Positions 1 through 5,606 of a stretch of DNA of 21,295 nucleotides are shown here, one piece after another. The notes under the pieces are model-generated. The model saw only the letters and a program-made list of their open reading frames with translations. It made no database searches and was not told where the DNA came from. The translations under genes were made by a program, and so were the position numbers. The stretch is from the IMG/VR virus record IMGVR_UViG_3300046010_006818, positions 1 to 21,295 of that record, one strand, 5' to 3'. Source of the stretch: a virus. Positions within the stretch are counted from its first letter, which is position 1; each line of letters begins with the position of its first letter.

Positions 1-221
<221 letters not shown>

Positions 222-227
222 TCCAAC

Positions 228-243
228 AGAAGCCGCCTACGCA
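228..243 (+). terminator. Left arm of the lysS intrinsic terminator, split by the IS
   Basis: The 16 bases here pair with 1845-1860 on the far side of the insertion sequence. The match has one A-A mismatch (239/1849) and two G-U wobbles (232/1856 and 238/1850). The arm lies seven bases after the lysS stop codon, where an intrinsic terminator is expected. The loop is now occupied by the entire IS. That this was the lysS terminator is inferred from position, stem quality and the T-rich stretch after the right arm. Confidence 0.65.
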
Positions 244-257
244 GGCTGTGTGAAAAC
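244..257 (+). repeat. Left terminal inverted repeat of the IS
   Basis: GGCTGTGTGAAAAC matches the reverse complement of 1831-1844 at 13 of 14 positions, with position 245 differing. Identity stops at 258, which marks the inner limit of the repeat. Such ends are the transposase recognition sites. Confidence 0.8.
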
Positions 258-281
258 CTAGCCAGCTGAAGGCGAGTTGAA

Positions 282-315
282 GACAATGCCCGTATCGTTC
301 GATACGGGCATTGTC
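282..315 (+). promoter_or_regulatory. Perfect 15-bp hairpin directly upstream of the transposase
   Basis: Bases 282-296 and 301-315 are exact reverse complements around the tetraloop GTTC. The right arm covers a possible TTG start at 311 and ends four bases before the ATG at 320. In RNA this would be very stable and would occupy the ribosome-landing region of the transposase message. Many IS elements use a hairpin at this place to stop translation of transcripts reading in from a neighbouring promoter such as that of lysS; that role is inferred here. No Shine-Dalgarno motif is visible between the hairpin and the ATG. Confidence 0.7.
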
Positions 316-319
316 GTTT

Positions 320-1741
320 ATGGGCTATATCCAAGGCGAAGGTCGCCAGCAGAGCAGTCTGTTTCCACCCACGTTGGAAGAGTTGGTTCCCGAAGATCAC
401 CTGGTGCGGGTCATTGAGGCCTATGTGGCCCGGTTGGATCTCCAGGTTTTGGGCTTCAGCAAAGCCCAGCCGCTCAAGACCGGGCGCCCGGCCTACGACC
501 CCGCAGATCTGCTCAAGCTTTACCTGTACGGCTACTTCCAGCGTATCCGTTCCTCGCGCCGGCTGGAGACTGAGTGCCAGCGCAATATCGAGGTGATGTG
601 GCTGCTCGGTCGTTTGGCGCCTGACTTCAAAACCATCGCAGACTTTCGCAAGGACAACAGCGCAGCCTTTCAGGCGACATGCAAAGCGTTCGTGCAGTTC
701 TGCCGCCAGGTGGGGTTGATCAGCGGGCAGCTGGTGGCCATCGATGGCAGCAAATTTCAGGCGGTCGCCTCCGCGCGCAAACACCTGAACCTCAAGCAGC
801 TCAAGCGCCAACAAGACACACTGGAAAAACATATCGCGCAGTACCTGGCCCAGTTGGATGCAGGCGATGCAGCGCAGAGTTCTGAGCCAATTGACCGGGT
901 CGCAGTCAAGCAGGCCCTGCAGCAGTTGCGGCACAAGCACGACAACAACCTGACCACCCAGGCACTGATGGAGGCGCAAGGGCTAGAACAGTTCGTGGTG
1001 GGCGAAGCCGATGCCAAGATGATGCGCACACATCTGGGCCCGCGCGTGGCCTACAACGTGCAGACGGCAGTCGACAGCAAACATTGCCTGATCCTGCATC
1101 ACGACGTAACCGATGCCAGCACCGACAACCAACAACTGGAGCCAGTGGCTACGGCGGCCAAGGCTGTGCTGGAGCAAGAAACGTTGGATGTCACAGCCGA
1201 TGCGGGTTACTCCAATGGCGAACACTTCCAGTCCTGCGAGGACGCCAAGATCACCGCTTATGTGCCACCGAACCGCGCGATTAACACCCAGGGTGACGGC
1301 CAGCACTTTGAGCGCAGCGCCTTTACCTATGACGAGCAAAGCGACTGCTATCAATGCCCAGCAGGCAAAACGCTGACACTCAAACAGCTCAACCGAGGCA
1401 GTCGGATTTACGCGGCAAACCCGCAAGACTGCGCCGCCTGTCCACTGAAAGCCAACTGCACGCAGGCCAAGCAACGCTACCTCTCACGGCACGCCCATGA
1501 GGCGGCGTTCGAGCGCATGGAGCAACGCCTGGCAGCCCACCCGGAGATGATGCTCAGGCGCCGCTCTATCGTTGAGCACCCTTTCGGCAATCTCAAACAA
1601 TGGCTGTTCGGCAACGGCCGCTTCCTCATGCGCCATTTCAGCGGAGCAAGGGCGGAAATGTCACTGGCGGTGCAAGCCTATAACCTTAAACGAGCCATCA
1701 ACGTGCTAGGCGCGCGCAGAATGATCGAGTTGCTGGCCTAA
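320..1741 (+). CDS. IS1182-family DDE transposase
   Basis: This 473-residue protein catalyses excision and insertion of the surrounding element. The N-terminal domain holds the family opening GYIQGEGRQQSSLFP, and DPADLLKLYLYGYFQRIRSS is typical of IS1182/IS5-like N-termini. The probable catalytic residues, counted from the ATG at 320, are Asp142 (AIDGSKF), Asp294 (VTADAGYS) and Glu419 (IVEHPFG). Between the second and third lies a cysteine cluster, CYQC and then CAACPLKANC, probably a zinc site and common in the family. The C-terminus has the usual FSGARAEMSL...AYNLKR helix. I chose ATG 320 because the alternative TTG at 311 lies inside a perfect hairpin. The frame is uninterrupted, so the enzyme could be active. 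Confidence 0.92.
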   Translation: MGYIQGEGRQQSSLFPPTLEELVPEDHLVRVIEAYVARLDLQVLGFSKAQPLKTGRPAYDPADLLKLYLYGYFQRIRSSRRLETECQRNIEVMWLLGRLAPDFKTIADFRKDNSAAFQATCKAFVQFCRQVGLISGQLVAIDGSKFQAVASARKHLNLKQLKRQQDTLEKHIAQYLAQLDAGDAAQSSEPIDRVAVKQALQQLRHKHDNNLTTQALMEAQGLEQFVVGEADAKMMRTHLGPRVAYNVQTAVDSKHCLILHHDVTDASTDNQQLEPVATAAKAVLEQETLDVTADAGYSNGEHFQSCEDAKITAYVPPNRAINTQGDGQHFERSAFTYDEQSDCYQCPAGKTLTLKQLNRGSRIYAANPQDCAACPLKANCTQAKQRYLSRHAHEAAFERMEQRLAAHPEMMLRRRSIVEHPFGNLKQWLFGNGRFLMRHFSGARAEMSLAVQAYNLKRAINVLGARRMIELLA

Positions 1742-1769
1742 ACAGGCTTGCACTGAGATTTTCGGCCGC

Positions 1770-1808
1770 AAAAGCAAACGCCCCGAACCAGTCGGGGCGC
1801 TTGCTTTT
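1770..1808 (+). terminator. Intrinsic terminator after the transposase
   Basis: AAAAGCAA (1770-1777) pairs with TTGCTTTT (1801-1808), and CGCCCCG (1779-1785) pairs with CGGGGCG (1793-1799), leaving a seven-base loop and one mismatched pair. The A-rich left arm and T-rich right arm allow it to work in both directions. It lies 29 bases after the transposase stop and inside the IS, so it may keep IS transcription out of the prophage and phage dam transcription out of lysS. Confidence 0.8.
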
Positions 1809-1830
1809 GTATCGTCGCCAGCAACACAGA

Positions 1831-1844
1831 GTTTTCACACAGTC
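1831..1844 (-). repeat. Right terminal inverted repeat of the IS
   Basis: GTTTTCACACAGTC is the reverse complement of the left repeat with one mismatch. It lies 89 bases after the transposase stop and directly against the right arm of the split terminator. Confidence 0.8.
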
Positions 1845-1860
1845 TGCGAGGGCGGTTTCT
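1845..1860 (+). terminator. Right arm of the split lysS terminator
   Basis: TGCGAGGGCGGTTTCT pairs with 228-243 and is followed by TTGTTGGTGCTG, a T-rich run that fits a terminator read in the lysS direction. Only 16 bases separate it from the stop codon of the phage methylase, so the host-prophage junction must lie close by or within this element. Confidence 0.6.
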
Positions 1861-1876
1861 TTGTTGGTGCTGTTGA

Positions 1877-2638
1877 CTACCAGTTGAAGTAGATCAACTC
1901 GTTGGCCTGCTTACCGCCATGCCCACCGACCGTGTGACGAAGTGGGACTTCTTTGAGGCGCAGCCCCGCGAACACCTCGCGGATCTGTGGGTGGTCATTG
2001 ATCGAGATAACCATCCGCCCCTTTATCGAACCGGCCAGCTCAGCCATGGCTTGGTACTGCTCGAAGTTGAACGCACCAGGTGCGTACCCAGCCGTCTCCC
2101 AGTAAGGCGGGTCCAGGTAAAAAAGCGTGTGCTCGCGGTCATAGCGCCTGATGCATTCCTTCCAGTCCAGGTGCTCGATGGTTGTCCGCGCCAGCCGAAG
2201 GTGTGCCTCGCTGAGTTTCTCCTCAATGCGCAGCAGGTTCAGTTTGGGCGGTGACGTGGTCGCGGTACCGAAGGTGCGCCCGGTCGGCTTGGCCCCAAAG
2301 CATGACTGCTGCAGGTAGAAGAACCGCGCCGCCCTCTGGATATCGGTCAGCGTCGCCGGGATCTGCATGTTGGCCCAGTCGAACATCACCCGGCTGACCA
2401 GCGACCAACGGAACTGGCGCACCAGTTCCTCCAGGTGATGAGCCACCACCCGGTAAAGGTTCACCACCTCACCATCGAAGTCGTTGATAACCTCAACCCG
2501 GCTGGGCTCTTTCATAAAGAACAATGCCGCGCCGCCGCAAAACGGCTCGACGTAGCACTCATGGTCTGGGAACTCCGGGAGAATGTGTTTAGCCATGCGG
2601 CGCTTGCCGCCCATCCAGGGAAAAATCGGTGTAGACAT
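1877..2638 (-). CDS. dam: Phage-encoded DNA adenine methylase, D12 class (Dam-like)
   Basis: This 253-residue protein should transfer a methyl group from S-adenosylmethionine to N6 of adenine, probably in GATC. Motif I is FPWMGGKRR (residues 6-14), with EPFCGGAALFF at 31-41. Motif IV, which holds the target adenine, is DPPYW at 176-180. A C-terminal segment with SINDHP and ELIYF completes the D12 fold. The length is normal for a phage Dam. The start is supported by AAGGA a few bases upstream on the minus strand. It is read in the same direction as P and Q but separated from Q by 158 bases. In phages such enzymes commonly protect DNA from host restriction or affect packaging and timing; which applies here is unknown. 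Exact sequence specificity cannot be read from the protein. Confidence 0.92.
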   Translation of the reverse strand: MSTPIFPWMGGKRRMAKHILPEFPDHECYVEPFCGGAALFFMKEPSRVEVINDFDGEVVNLYRVVAHHLEELVRQFRWSLVSRVMFDWANMQIPATLTDIQRAARFFYLQQSCFGAKPTGRTFGTATTSPPKLNLLRIEEKLSEAHLRLARTTIEHLDWKECIRRYDREHTLFYLDPPYWETAGYAPGAFNFEQYQAMAELAGSIKGRMVISINDHPQIREVFAGLRLKEVPLRHTVGGHGGKQANELIYFNW

Positions 2639-2639
2639 A

Positions 2640-2720
2640 AGTGATCCTTGTTTTCAGCTATTGGATTCGCTTAGGCTCCGCACCCCCTGCGCAGTGGGGC
2701 GAGGCCTTGGTTGGATCACT
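2640..2720. other. Candidate cos (packaging) region between dam and portal gene
   Basis: In P2 the cohesive-end site lies just beyond the 3' end of Q, which is this gap. GGGGCGAGGCC at 2696-2706 shares the core GGCGAGGC with the P2 cohesive end as I remember it. The block is flanked by an 8-bp perfect inverted repeat, AGTGATCC at 2640-2647 and GGATCACT at 2713-2720. Both the position and the motif are suggestive only; the nick sites cannot be placed by eye. Confidence 0.3.
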
Positions 2721-2744
2721 CGGCGTGCTCGAGTGGTTCGACGT

Positions 2745-2770
2745 CGAGCCGGTGTTAGCGCACCGGCTCG
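2745..2770. repeat. Perfect 10-bp stem-loop downstream of portal gene Q
   Basis: CGAGCCGGTG (2745-2754) and CACCGGCTCG (2761-2770) pair perfectly around TTAGCG. On the minus strand it follows the Q stop codon by 26 bases but has no T-run, so it is not a textbook intrinsic terminator. It could end or process the P-Q transcript, or belong to the packaging site. Confidence 0.6.
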
Positions 2771-2796
2771 TCGCCTCGTTTACTGCGCGGGGGCTT

Positions 2797-3849
2797 TCAC
2801 CCCTTCGCCGGTAGTTCAAACGGCCGGAATGTGATCACCTCCTCCCCCACCCAGTCATTCAGCTGGGCCAGGCGGGCTTGCATCGGTTCCAGTTCATTCA
2901 TCGCCCACACCTCAGAGGCCTCGCGCAGACTGCCGAAGCCGCCCGCGTTTTGCGGGACGATGCCCAGCAGTTGAGGTGGGATGCGCAGCGCCGCGAGCAA
3001 GTCGTCGCGGCTGATGTTCTTGATGGCGGCGAAGTCATCCTTGGCCGCCACCTCACTGATCGGGATGAGTTGGATGCCGTCCTTCTTCCCACCAGGTGCA
3101 TACATGAACAGGTTGCGGAAATTGCCGGGGCCTTTGCTGTTCTTCATCGCGTTGCGCAGATCGCCGACGAAGTCCTCATTCTGCGCCGCGTCCGTCATGT
3201 ACAAGATGAACCCGGCGTGTGAGCCGTTGTTGTAATACTTACGGCGGAACAACGTGGCCGACTCATTCAGCAGCGCGCTTTGCAACGCCGCAAACCATTC
3301 CGGCAGGCCATACACCTCCTGGTTGATATCCGCCTCGCGCAAGTGGCACACGCTGCCCGCCTTGAAGACGTGCTCATCCTTGAACCCGCGCACCTGGTAA
3401 TAGGTCTGCAGATCCTCCCCGCGCCGCATGTACTTCGCCAAGCACGGCAGCAAGGCCAGCGGCTGGCCCAGCATGTTCTCGCGCCGCTCCACATACGCCT
3501 GGCCGAACGTCACCCAGTCCAGCGCCAGTTGCCCGAAGGCCGCCCGCCCCAGCAGCTTATGCGGGATGAAATGCCGCTCCAGCATGTTGCGTTTGAATGT
3601 CAGCCCGCTCTGCAGGTACACGCTGGCCTTGGTCGACTTCGCCAGACCTTCCAGCGATATCGGCGGCTCAAACCAGCGGCCATTGCTCCAGCATTCCAGG
3701 TAATCGAGGATCTCCCGACCATCCAGCACCGGCGTGGGGTCGCCAAAGGTGAACGCCTCAGCATGGCCTGACGCCGCACTCATCACCTCACCCTCAGCGG
3801 GCGGCGTTTGGGTGGCCACTTGCTGGCCTTGATTGCGACGCTTACTCAT
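2797..3849 (-). CDS. Q: Phage portal protein (P2 gpQ family)
   Basis: This 350-residue protein should form the ring at one capsid vertex through which DNA is packaged and to which the tail attaches. Its size is close to P2 gpQ (about 344). Recognisable family segments are a central FRRKYYNNGSHAGFI-type stretch near residues 202-215 and RIPPQLLGIVPQNAGGFG near 289-306, which resembles the conserved HRVPPQLLG segment of this portal family. Translation begins at ATG 3849, whose A is the last base of the TGA stop of the terminase gene; GGAG lies eight bases upstream. A longer frame reaching back to 3930 would overlap P by 82 bases and is unlikely. The P-Q pair read away from the capsid genes is the classic P2 arrangement. 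Confidence 0.95.
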   Translation of the reverse strand: MSKRRNQGQQVATQTPPAEGEVMSAASGHAEAFTFGDPTPVLDGREILDYLECWSNGRWFEPPISLEGLAKSTKASVYLQSGLTFKRNMLERHFIPHKLLGRAAFGQLALDWVTFGQAYVERRENMLGQPLALLPCLAKYMRRGEDLQTYYQVRGFKDEHVFKAGSVCHLREADINQEVYGLPEWFAALQSALLNESATLFRRKYYNNGSHAGFILYMTDAAQNEDFVGDLRNAMKNSKGPGNFRNLFMYAPGGKKDGIQLIPISEVAAKDDFAAIKNISRDDLLAALRIPPQLLGIVPQNAGGFGSLREASEVWAMNELEPMQARLAQLNDWVGEEVITFRPFELPAKG

Positions 3850-5606
3850 CAGTAGATCTCCATAATGGCCGTATTGGAGGACGTCTGGCCCTCCAATGGC
3901 TCGTTGTGCAGTGCATGGAATAAGGCCCACGCCAAGTCGGCATGGCCCGTGTTGTCATTGCGCCCGGCGGTGTACGTGAACTGCCGCCCGCTCGCGGTCA
4001 CGGTTTTGCGGATGGCCATCAGCGACGACGCCAAGTCCGTCCAGCCCGCGTCAAACTCCAGCCGCCCGTTGCTGATCACCGACCACGCCTTGAGCACCAG
4101 GCGCGTCTTCACCTCCGGCGAATAGCTGAACGTCTTGAGGCCGGGGAAGAACTGCCGCACCAACTGCGCCACGCCGCTGCCCATGCCCGTCACATCGATG
4201 CCGATGTAAGTCACCCAATAGCGCATCGTCACCTGGCGGATCGTCTCGGCCTGCGCCTCGTAATCCATCCCCCGGAACTGATGCCGCTCCAGCACGCGGA
4301 ACTTCCCGCCCGGTACCATCGGCGGGGCCACCACAATCAAACCGGCAGAGTCGCCCGTCTCGGCGGGGTCATACCCCACCCACACGGCCCGTTCAGCGAA
4401 TGGCCGCTGGGCGAATGGCTTGTAGTCCTCAGCCCACTCCACCCAACTGTCCACCATGCACGGCTGCAGCATGTTCAGCGGGAAGATGCTCGCCCCGTCG
4501 TCGACGAACTCGCACATCAGCAGGTTTTGGAAGGCCTCGGCCGCGTACTCAAGGCGCAGCTCATCGATATCGAACAGATCGCAGCCGCCCGCCTCGGCAT
4601 CCAGAATCGTGACGATCTGCCGCCACAACCGGTCCTCGCACAACCGGCCCTGCTGCAGCGCGCCGTGGCTCACATCCAACTTGATGTGCTGCGCGCTCGG
4701 TTTGCCCTTGTTAAAGCGCTCACCCGTCCAGAACGTATACGCCTCATGCGCCATCGAACTGGGCGTTGAAAAGTACGTGCGGCGGTATTGCTTCTGCATG
4801 GCCATGCCGCTGGCCACCTTGTTCAACTCGTTAAACTTGAACGTCCAGAAGAACTCATCGAAGTAAAAGTTGCCGTGGTACCCCTGCGCCGTGCGCGCGT
4901 TGGTACCCAAAAAGTGCAGCTCGGCACCGTTGGGTAGAATGATCGGATCCCCCGTCAACTCAACGCCCACCACATCACGGGCAAACGCCTGGATGTAAGC
5001 CTTGAAGATGTGCGCCTGATTTTTCGACGCACTGAGGAAGATCTGATTGCGCCCCGTCGTCAGCGCATCAATCAACGCCTCGCGGGCAAAGTAGTACGTG
5101 GCCCCGATCTGGCGAGACTTGAGAATGGCCCGCGTGCGCTGATTGCCCGCCCGGTACCAGTCTTTTTGATAATCGAAGCAACCGTCTAGAAACGCCTCGA
5201 CCAGCTTCTCGACGTGTTCCTCTCCAATTTCATTGCGTTTCGGCTTACGCTTCTCCCCAGCGTTGCGCTTGGTTATCTCCGGGTTTAAGTCCGCCTCGGT
5301 GCCGCCGTCCTGGTACCGCGCAATGCGCGCCTGGCGTTCCAATTGCCGGCCCAGCAGATCGATCTCCTTGAAGTCCGTCCCGGTCTTCGGATCTTTCAGC
5401 AACAGTTGCACCAACCGCGCCTCGGTCGCCGCCTGCACCCGCTCCAGCGGCGTGGCCCGGTCCCACTCATCGCGGGCTTTCCAGCTGTGCAGGGTTTTTT
5501 CCTTCTCCCCAATCAGCTCGGCGATCTCGCACACGCGGTAGCCCTGCCAATACAAGTGTTTGGCATGGCGGCGGTGGTCAGTGGGTAACTCAACGAGTGC
5601 ATTCAT
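3849..5606 (-). CDS. P: Terminase large subunit, ATPase and nuclease (P2 gpP family)
   Basis: This 585-residue motor protein cuts phage DNA at cos and drives it into the procapsid using ATP. P2 gpP is about 590 residues. An N-terminal helix-turn-helix-like segment (CEIAELIGEKEKTLHSW, about 26-42) may bind DNA. The ATPase has the Walker A-like LKSRQIGAT (162-170) and the Walker B block FYFDEFFW (247-254). The C-terminal RNase H-like nuclease shows acidic positions in VGYDPAETGD (410-419), IGIDVTGMGSG (468-478) and NTGHADLAWA (552-561). I chose ATG 5606 over an upstream GTG at 5627. The ATG lies in a sequence also found at the start of gene V, and neither start has a clear Shine-Dalgarno site. 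It overlaps Q by one base, so the two are probably translationally coupled. Confidence 0.95.
   Translation of the reverse strand: MNALVELPTDHRRHAKHLYWQGYRVCEIAELIGEKEKTLHSWKARDEWDRATPLERVQAATEARLVQLLLKDPKTGTDFKEIDLLGRQLERQARIARYQDGGTEADLNPEITKRNAGEKRKPKRNEIGEEHVEKLVEAFLDGCFDYQKDWYRAGNQRTRAILKSRQIGATYYFAREALIDALTTGRNQIFLSASKNQAHIFKAYIQAFARDVVGVELTGDPIILPNGAELHFLGTNARTAQGYHGNFYFDEFFWTFKFNELNKVASGMAMQKQYRRTYFSTPSSMAHEAYTFWTGERFNKGKPSAQHIKLDVSHGALQQGRLCEDRLWRQIVTILDAEAGGCDLFDIDELRLEYAAEAFQNLLMCEFVDDGASIFPLNMLQPCMVDSWVEWAEDYKPFAQRPFAERAVWVGYDPAETGDSAGLIVVAPPMVPGGKFRVLERHQFRGMDYEAQAETIRQVTMRYWVTYIGIDVTGMGSGVAQLVRQFFPGLKTFSYSPEVKTRLVLKAWSVISNGRLEFDAGWTDLASSLMAIRKTVTASGRQFTYTAGRNDNTGHADLAWALFHALHNEPLEGQTSSNTAIMEIY

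Follow-up and report, generated by a model that had tools for sequence, protein, structure and literature searches.

Organization of the locus

The stretch of DNA analysed here (referred to as the window; 21,295 nucleotides of a virus record) begins with the 3′ end of lysS, the gene for lysine--tRNA ligase (positions 3-221, plus strand, stop codon at 219-221), which was identified by C-terminal matches to NCBIfam PRK00484.1 and TIGR00499. Next come the 5′ half of the intrinsic terminator of lysS (228-241, plus strand; AGAAGCCGCC and the loop copy TACG at 238-241), assigned by its match to a relative (L167), and an insertion sequence (IS) of 1605 bp (242-1846, plus strand), defined by its pair of terminal inverted repeats (TIRs) and its transposase. 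The left TIR (CAGGCTGTGTGAAAAC, 242-257, plus strand) belongs to a 16-bp sequence that recurs nearly unchanged as the termini of over 120 copies, and the right TIR (GTTTTCACACAGTCTG, 1831-1846, minus strand) was located by TIR comparison. Between them lies the transposase ORF (DDE_Tnp_1; 311-1741, plus strand; PF01609, PF13751, and PF05598), which opens with TTG at 311, the ATG at 320 being the likelier start. The IS is followed by one half of the terminator of a prophage dam gene (1847-1862, minus strand; loop copy CGAG at 1847-1850 and GGCGGTTTCTTT), which is intact in L197, L222, and L225. According to domain matches, a minus-strand P2-like prophage then continues with a dam-like methyltransferase, a portal protein, and a terminase; the gene for the first, a D12-class adenine methyltransferase, occupies 1877-2638 (minus strand; PF02086, with TIGR00571 below its cutoff) and that for the P2-like phage portal 2797-3930 (minus strand; PF04860). 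In the region 1-3930 the prophage dam gene adjoins lysS via the IS, and the sequence usual to the left of dam in the phage is absent here. This adjacency could be due to a deletion, to integration by IS homology, or to an assembly join.

Copies of the IS group were folded, and two internal hairpins were found, the first immediately before tnp and the second in the stretch from tnp to the right end. In the window the former is a strong hairpin at 282-315 (plus strand) that likely shields tnp from read-through, and the latter is a bidirectional terminator-like hairpin at about 1769-1809 (plus strand; AAAAGCAAACGCCCCGA..TCGGGGCGCTTGCTTTT) flanked by runs of A and T; similar hairpins were present in the other folded copies. 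Plausibly, the two stop transcription from either side and replace the terminator that the IS has split. The replacement terminator placed at 1770-1808 in a preliminary description of this DNA is real as a folded hairpin, and a terminating role is plausible.

Identity of the insertion sequence

The transposase matched NCBIfam NF033551 (transpos_IS1182) with 415.7 bits (cutoff, 270), and the element has the organization of the IS1182 family, with a DDE transposase of the IS1182 type and TIRs of about 16 bp (CAGGCTGTGTGAAAAC and GTTTTCACACAGTCTG) flanking one tnp ORF. An ISPpu20-like group was delimited within the family by a transposase identity of at least about 65% and the TIR CAG(A/G)CTGTGTGAAAAC. 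The window transposase is about 65-80% identical to those of the members and its TIR conforms to this sequence, and its protein identity to ISPpu20 itself is 69.7%, far from the near-identity of the same IS. The window element is a new member of the IS1182-family ISPpu20-like group with the TIR CAGACTGTGTGAAAAC. The flanking arms described below were also considered as parts of the IS, that is, of a long TIR, and this was rejected, since the arms vary between copies and the 16-bp TIR hardly changes. Both IS junctions of the window were searched in other viral contigs, and no exact match was found.

Insertion sites of the ISPpu20-like group

Copies were collected from named genomes and from 399 genomes of the genus Pseudomonas, their flanks were fetched, the TIRs were located, and the flanks were measured. 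The resulting set comprised 124 distinct sites with a transposase identity of at least 60%, and a hairpin centred on the insertion was called strong at a score of at least 8. Strong hairpins were found at 93 of the 124 sites; among 1992 positions drawn at random from the same neighbourhoods, 21 had one. Target duplications were of 4 bp (n = 84), 5 bp (n = 22), 6 bp (n = 5), or 3 bp (n = 1), and 12 copies had none; unlike in the stem-loop replacement of the IS1272 type, the stems were kept in the copies with a duplication (112/124). Of the 87 hairpin sites with a duplication, 57 had precisely the loop duplicated, and a run of at least four A or T was present in 50 of 52 such sites among the first 68 sites. 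Typical sites read AAAAAACCCGC-TTCG-[IS]-TTCG-GCGGGTTTTTTT (L115) and AGCCCCGC-AATC-[IS]-AATC-GCGGGGCT (L009). ISPpu20 on plasmid pWW53 also lies inside a terminator, with TTAAT duplicated, and the copies on two other Pseudomonas plasmids follow the same pattern, the IS beginning about 30 bp past the end of the upstream gene. As predicted from sequence, the targets have the features of intrinsic terminators, namely a GC stem, a short loop, and a T-tract at the end of a gene. By a crude test, which is only suggestive of an intergenic location, 74 of 123 insertions lay inside six-frame open frames, compared with 334 of 375 random positions. The remaining 31 of the 124 sites lacked a strong hairpin, and many of these belong to a genome with 35 copies (G388).

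The group almost always jumps into terminator loops, with the loop copied on both sides, and the survey of other copies for insertion in terminator-like palindromes strongly supports, as a habit of the group, the landing in a terminator-hairpin loop that was put forward in the preliminary description (three quarters of the sites, against about 1% of random positions).

A few copies (L026, L039, and L134, L135, and L295 of genome G240) are located in dispersed REP-like repeats (GAGCAAGCCCGCTCCCACA, CTGCCGAAGGCTGCGATCTTTTG), which are not terminators.

Empty sites were obtained by searching the joined flanks of the insertions of two genomes (G217 and G067) in relatives. Relatives carry the uninterrupted terminator with a single copy of the loop (L270, L272, L118, and L086; less closely, L110 and L283). 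For instance, the empty site L270 reads AAAGGCCACC-CGAA-GGTGGCCTTT and the occupied site L308 reads AAAGGCCACC-CGAA-[IS]-CGAA-GGTGGCCTTT, the two being 95% identical over the aligned stretch.

Origin of the two arms in the window

Bases 228-243 (AGAAGCCGCCTACGCA) and 1845-1860 (TGCGAGGGCGGTTTCT) are complementary but for one mismatch and two wobbles, and the T-rich sequence TTTCTTTGTT follows the right arm. This 16-bp stem, a few bases 3′ of the lysS stop codon (ending at 221), is present as it had been reported; the preliminary description is largely right in what it observed and half right in how it read this. The arms do run contiguously into the IS ends; because the TIRs set the bounds of the IS at 242-1846, the innermost two bases on each side (242-243 and 1845-1846) are IS bases and not target. 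The target-derived arms are accordingly 228-241 (AGAAGCCGCC and TACG) and 1847-1860 (CGAG and GGCGGTTTCT).

In the closest IS-free relative for lysS (L167; lysS 92% identical), CAGAAGCCGCC-TCCG-GGCGGCTTTTTG is located directly 3′ of lysS (in a longer stretch, TGATCCAGCAGAAGCCGCC-TCCG-GGCGGCTTTTTGTTG), so the left arm of the window is the lysS terminator's 5′ half. The closest prophage relative (L197 in genome G112; 90% identity over dam) is free of the IS, and its dam gene is followed by an uninterrupted terminator, AAAAAAACCGCC-CGAG-GGCGGCTTCCTTGTAGGTGCTGTTGACTACCAG (with a longer left stretch, CCACAAAAAAACCGCC-CGAG-GGCGGCTTCCTTGTAGGTGCTGTTGACTACCAG). The right flank of the window, CGAG-GGCGGTTTCTTTGTTGGTGCTGTTGACTACCAG, is the other half of a dam terminator of this type, and the right arm with the next 25 bases differs from the dam 3′ region of L197 at 3 of 33 positions. 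A hairpin after dam was also found in the phage contigs L222, L225, and L209, the terminator being intact in the first two. In G112, lysS (0.43 Mb) and the prophage (2.01 Mb) are about 1.6 Mb apart. The assignment of the right arm to the downstream arm of lysS was rejected, as it differs from the lysS sequence of L167 and matches the prophage dam terminator. The window copy has no target duplication (TACG on one side, CGAG on the other), which is explained by the joining of two loci by the IS.

A stem as good as that of the window occurs at about 1% of random positions. When left and right halves of the targets of this IS group were paired at random, a stem with a score of at least 8 was formed in about 20% of cases, so that the stem of the window is no proof of a common origin of its arms. 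What the pairing does establish is that each flank is half of a terminator, not that a single terminator supplied both. Intact hairpins do exist in IS-free relatives, as the preliminary description had anticipated, and they are the separate terminators of lysS and dam rather than one hairpin made of both arms. Insertion in a terminator loop fits each half of the window separately, and the copy itself is a hybrid without duplication.

Formation of the hybrid copy

In genome G388 the group is represented by 35 nearly identical copies (L089, L120-L122, and L239-L269), mostly on a 5.8-Mb contig, and many of the sites there are relaxed versions of the target motif. Six of the 34 copies analysed lacked a duplication, and five of these six could be re-paired with each other, L268 and L255 reciprocally and L264, L262, and L260 as a three-cycle. 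Each re-pairing restored a duplication of 4-5 bp and a terminator hairpin, while the chance that a cross-combination shares 4-6 bp is about 2%. These copies indicate that recombination between two IS copies yields exactly the signature of the window. One of the hybrids, L268, resembles a split terminator even when taken alone (score 10.5, compared with 10.0 for the window).

The hybrid in the window arose by such recombination or by misassembly across the repeat, its genome being known from a 21-kb virus record. The latter, in which two contigs ending in the same multi-copy IS were joined into an artificial lysS-IS-prophage junction, is quite possible, if somewhat short of probable: the assembly quality of the virus record is unknown, the repeat of 1.6 kb exceeds the length of short reads, and the flanks are unrelated loci in G112, but true recombinants with the same signature are found on the 5.8-Mb contig of G388.

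Sequence and structure at the target sites

A symmetric motif, A4-N6-C-[4-6 bp]-G-N6-T4, is common to the sites. At hairpin sites the half-site has C at -1 (88%) and A at positions -11 to -8 (87-94%), with GC-rich sequence in between. Whether 4, 5, or 6 bp are duplicated, the A-tract (positions -11 to -8, mostly 80-100% A) and the C/G at -1 keep a constant distance to the cut, and the length of the duplication is thus the spacing of the half-sites. Twenty-four of 111 duplicated sites (about 22%) are without a strong hairpin and retain the A-tract and the CC in weaker form; pairing is accordingly no strict requirement.

Once the motif score was matched, used sites had strong hairpins no more often than a background of 418 kb. 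Pairing in the exact register favoured the used sites in the three upper score bands (p = 0.001, 0.0003, and 0.02), in a test that is biased because its background was scanned with 4-bp spacing only. Non-hairpin sites showed a slight excess of pairing over shuffled sequences (4.0 versus 3.6 of 7, P = 0.018). The hairpin as sole determinant is unsupported by the motif-matched test, while the exact-register test, with its biased background, favours pairing. We take the terminator signature to be the target of the group; pairing may contribute but is not indispensable.

A second group of IS1182-family elements in Pseudomonas (ISPmo1/ISPa7-like; L077, L102, L142, L150-L165, and others), with transposases 41-45% identical to those of the window group, nearly always generates a 4-bp duplication of GGCC/GRYC within a symmetric motif (roughly GCTTTTGGCCGAAAGC), mostly with weak hairpins. 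These targets fit the reading of two half-sites in duplex DNA as a habit of the IS1182 family.

Alternatively, the transposase might recognise the extruded hairpin (cruciform) and cut at the edges of the loop, the size of which would set the length of the duplication. The identity of duplication and loop at most sites, the variation of its length from 4 to 6 with the spacing of the arms, the excess of exact-register pairing over the motif-matched background, and the structure-guided insertion reported for the related IS1272 (PMC4923244, PMC5678879) would agree with it. We nevertheless regard this as rather unlikely, since the frequency of hairpins is not raised at equal motif score, the A-tract and C/G persist where a duplicated site has no strong hairpin (24 of 111), few sites are REP-like palindromes devoid of A/T tracts, and the target used by the sister group is symmetric and GGCC-centred and forms little hairpin. 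If it did apply, and we hold this with equal doubt, it would be a real case of the loop-duplicating pathway drawn hypothetically for IS1272 (pathway c, PMC5678879). The choice of target by hairpin structure, as first proposed for this locus, is only partly borne out: in-register pairing exceeds the background in a biased test, but there is no excess of hairpins at equal motif strength and about one fifth of the duplicated sites have no strong one.

Proposed mechanism

The IS ends, the pattern of targets, the duplicated loops, the empty sites, and the hybrid flanks were observed, and from these sequence comparisons we consider it highly probable that an ISPpu20-like element targets terminator loops and that its copy in the window is a lysS/dam hybrid. 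The transposase would insert at the symmetry axis of intrinsic terminators, two symmetric half-sites, each with an A/T tract at 8-11 bp and C/G beside the cut, being read presumably by a transposase dimer. The ends of the IS would be joined to both edges of the loop, the 4-6 bp of which would become the target duplication, and the split host terminator would be replaced by the hairpins inside the IS ends. In the window, the left end would derive from a copy that had entered the lysS terminator (loop TACG), the right end from one that had entered the prophage dam terminator (CGAG), and the two would have been joined by homologous recombination of two IS copies or, wrongly, by the assembler. Recombination could have proceeded by deletion, by inversion, or by integration of the phage circle via IS homology. 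A single insertion in the lysS terminator with both arms derived from lysS, as stated in the preliminary description, is very improbable, because, although the arms pair and adjoin lysS and the IS group does target terminators, the right flank (CGAGGGCGGTTTCTTTGTTGGTGCTG) matches the prophage dam 3′ region of L197 and not the sequence downstream of lysS, and the loop copy on the left (TACG) does not agree with that on the right (CGAG), in a group where 112 of 124 copies show a duplication.

Genomes contain many terminators, which are palindromic and lie mostly outside genes. An IS that targets them, duplicates the loop, and brings its own terminators can reach many copies (35 in one genome) cheaply. 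The symmetric motif and the variable length of the duplication make the question of hairpin versus sequence reading directly testable, and mismatched loop copies are a simple marker of recombination between IS copies.

Comparison with known systems

ISPpu20 of pWW53 resembles the window IS in its transposase (70% identical), its closely similar TIR, and its terminator site with a duplicated 5-bp loop (TTAAT), but is too divergent to be the same IS. In a literature search with subscription literature and ISfinder outside its range, IS1272 was the sole direct precedent found for a terminator-targeting IS, and no description of loop duplication or of a motif was found for the ISPpu20-like group; the search found no paper on ISPpu20 by name.

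Group IIC introns, which insert behind intrinsic terminators (Robart et al. 2007, cited in PMC3240598), likewise spread by choosing such sites but are retroelements that recognise the stem-loop and have no DDE transposase. The REP-targeting ISs of Pseudomonas, ISPpu9, ISPpu10, and ISPa11, have a palindromic extragenic target (PMC1525189). They share with the window group the host genus and the palindromic extragenic location, but their targets, the REP elements, differ. These three belong to IS families other than that of the window IS.

Within the IS1182 family, palindromic targets are mentioned for some members by Siguier et al., as cited in PMC5678879. IS1272 and TnSha1 of staphylococci insert in hairpins, several of them terminators confirmed by RNA-seq (PMC4923244, PMC5678879), with part or all of the hairpin deleted, no duplication, and no sequence consensus (PMC5678879, PMC4923244); a loop-duplicating pathway was drawn as a theoretical alternative for IS1272 (PMC5678879). 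IS1272 and the window group thus have transposases of the same family and both use hairpins, but IS1272 deletes the stem-loop, whereas the window group duplicates the loop, keeps the stem, and has a clear symmetric motif. The targeting of terminator hairpins is already known from IS1272, and the loop duplication and the symmetric motif appear, within the literature searched, to be new. The ISPmo1/ISPa7-like group shares the IS1182 family (about 44% identity), a similar TIR, 4-bp duplications, and a symmetric target with the window group but differs in that its target is centred on GGCC/GRYC with GC boxes, is rarely a hairpin, and is no terminator. One family therefore displays three habits, namely deletion of the stem-loop (IS1272), duplication of the loop (window group), and use of a GGCC-centred sequence (ISPmo1-like).
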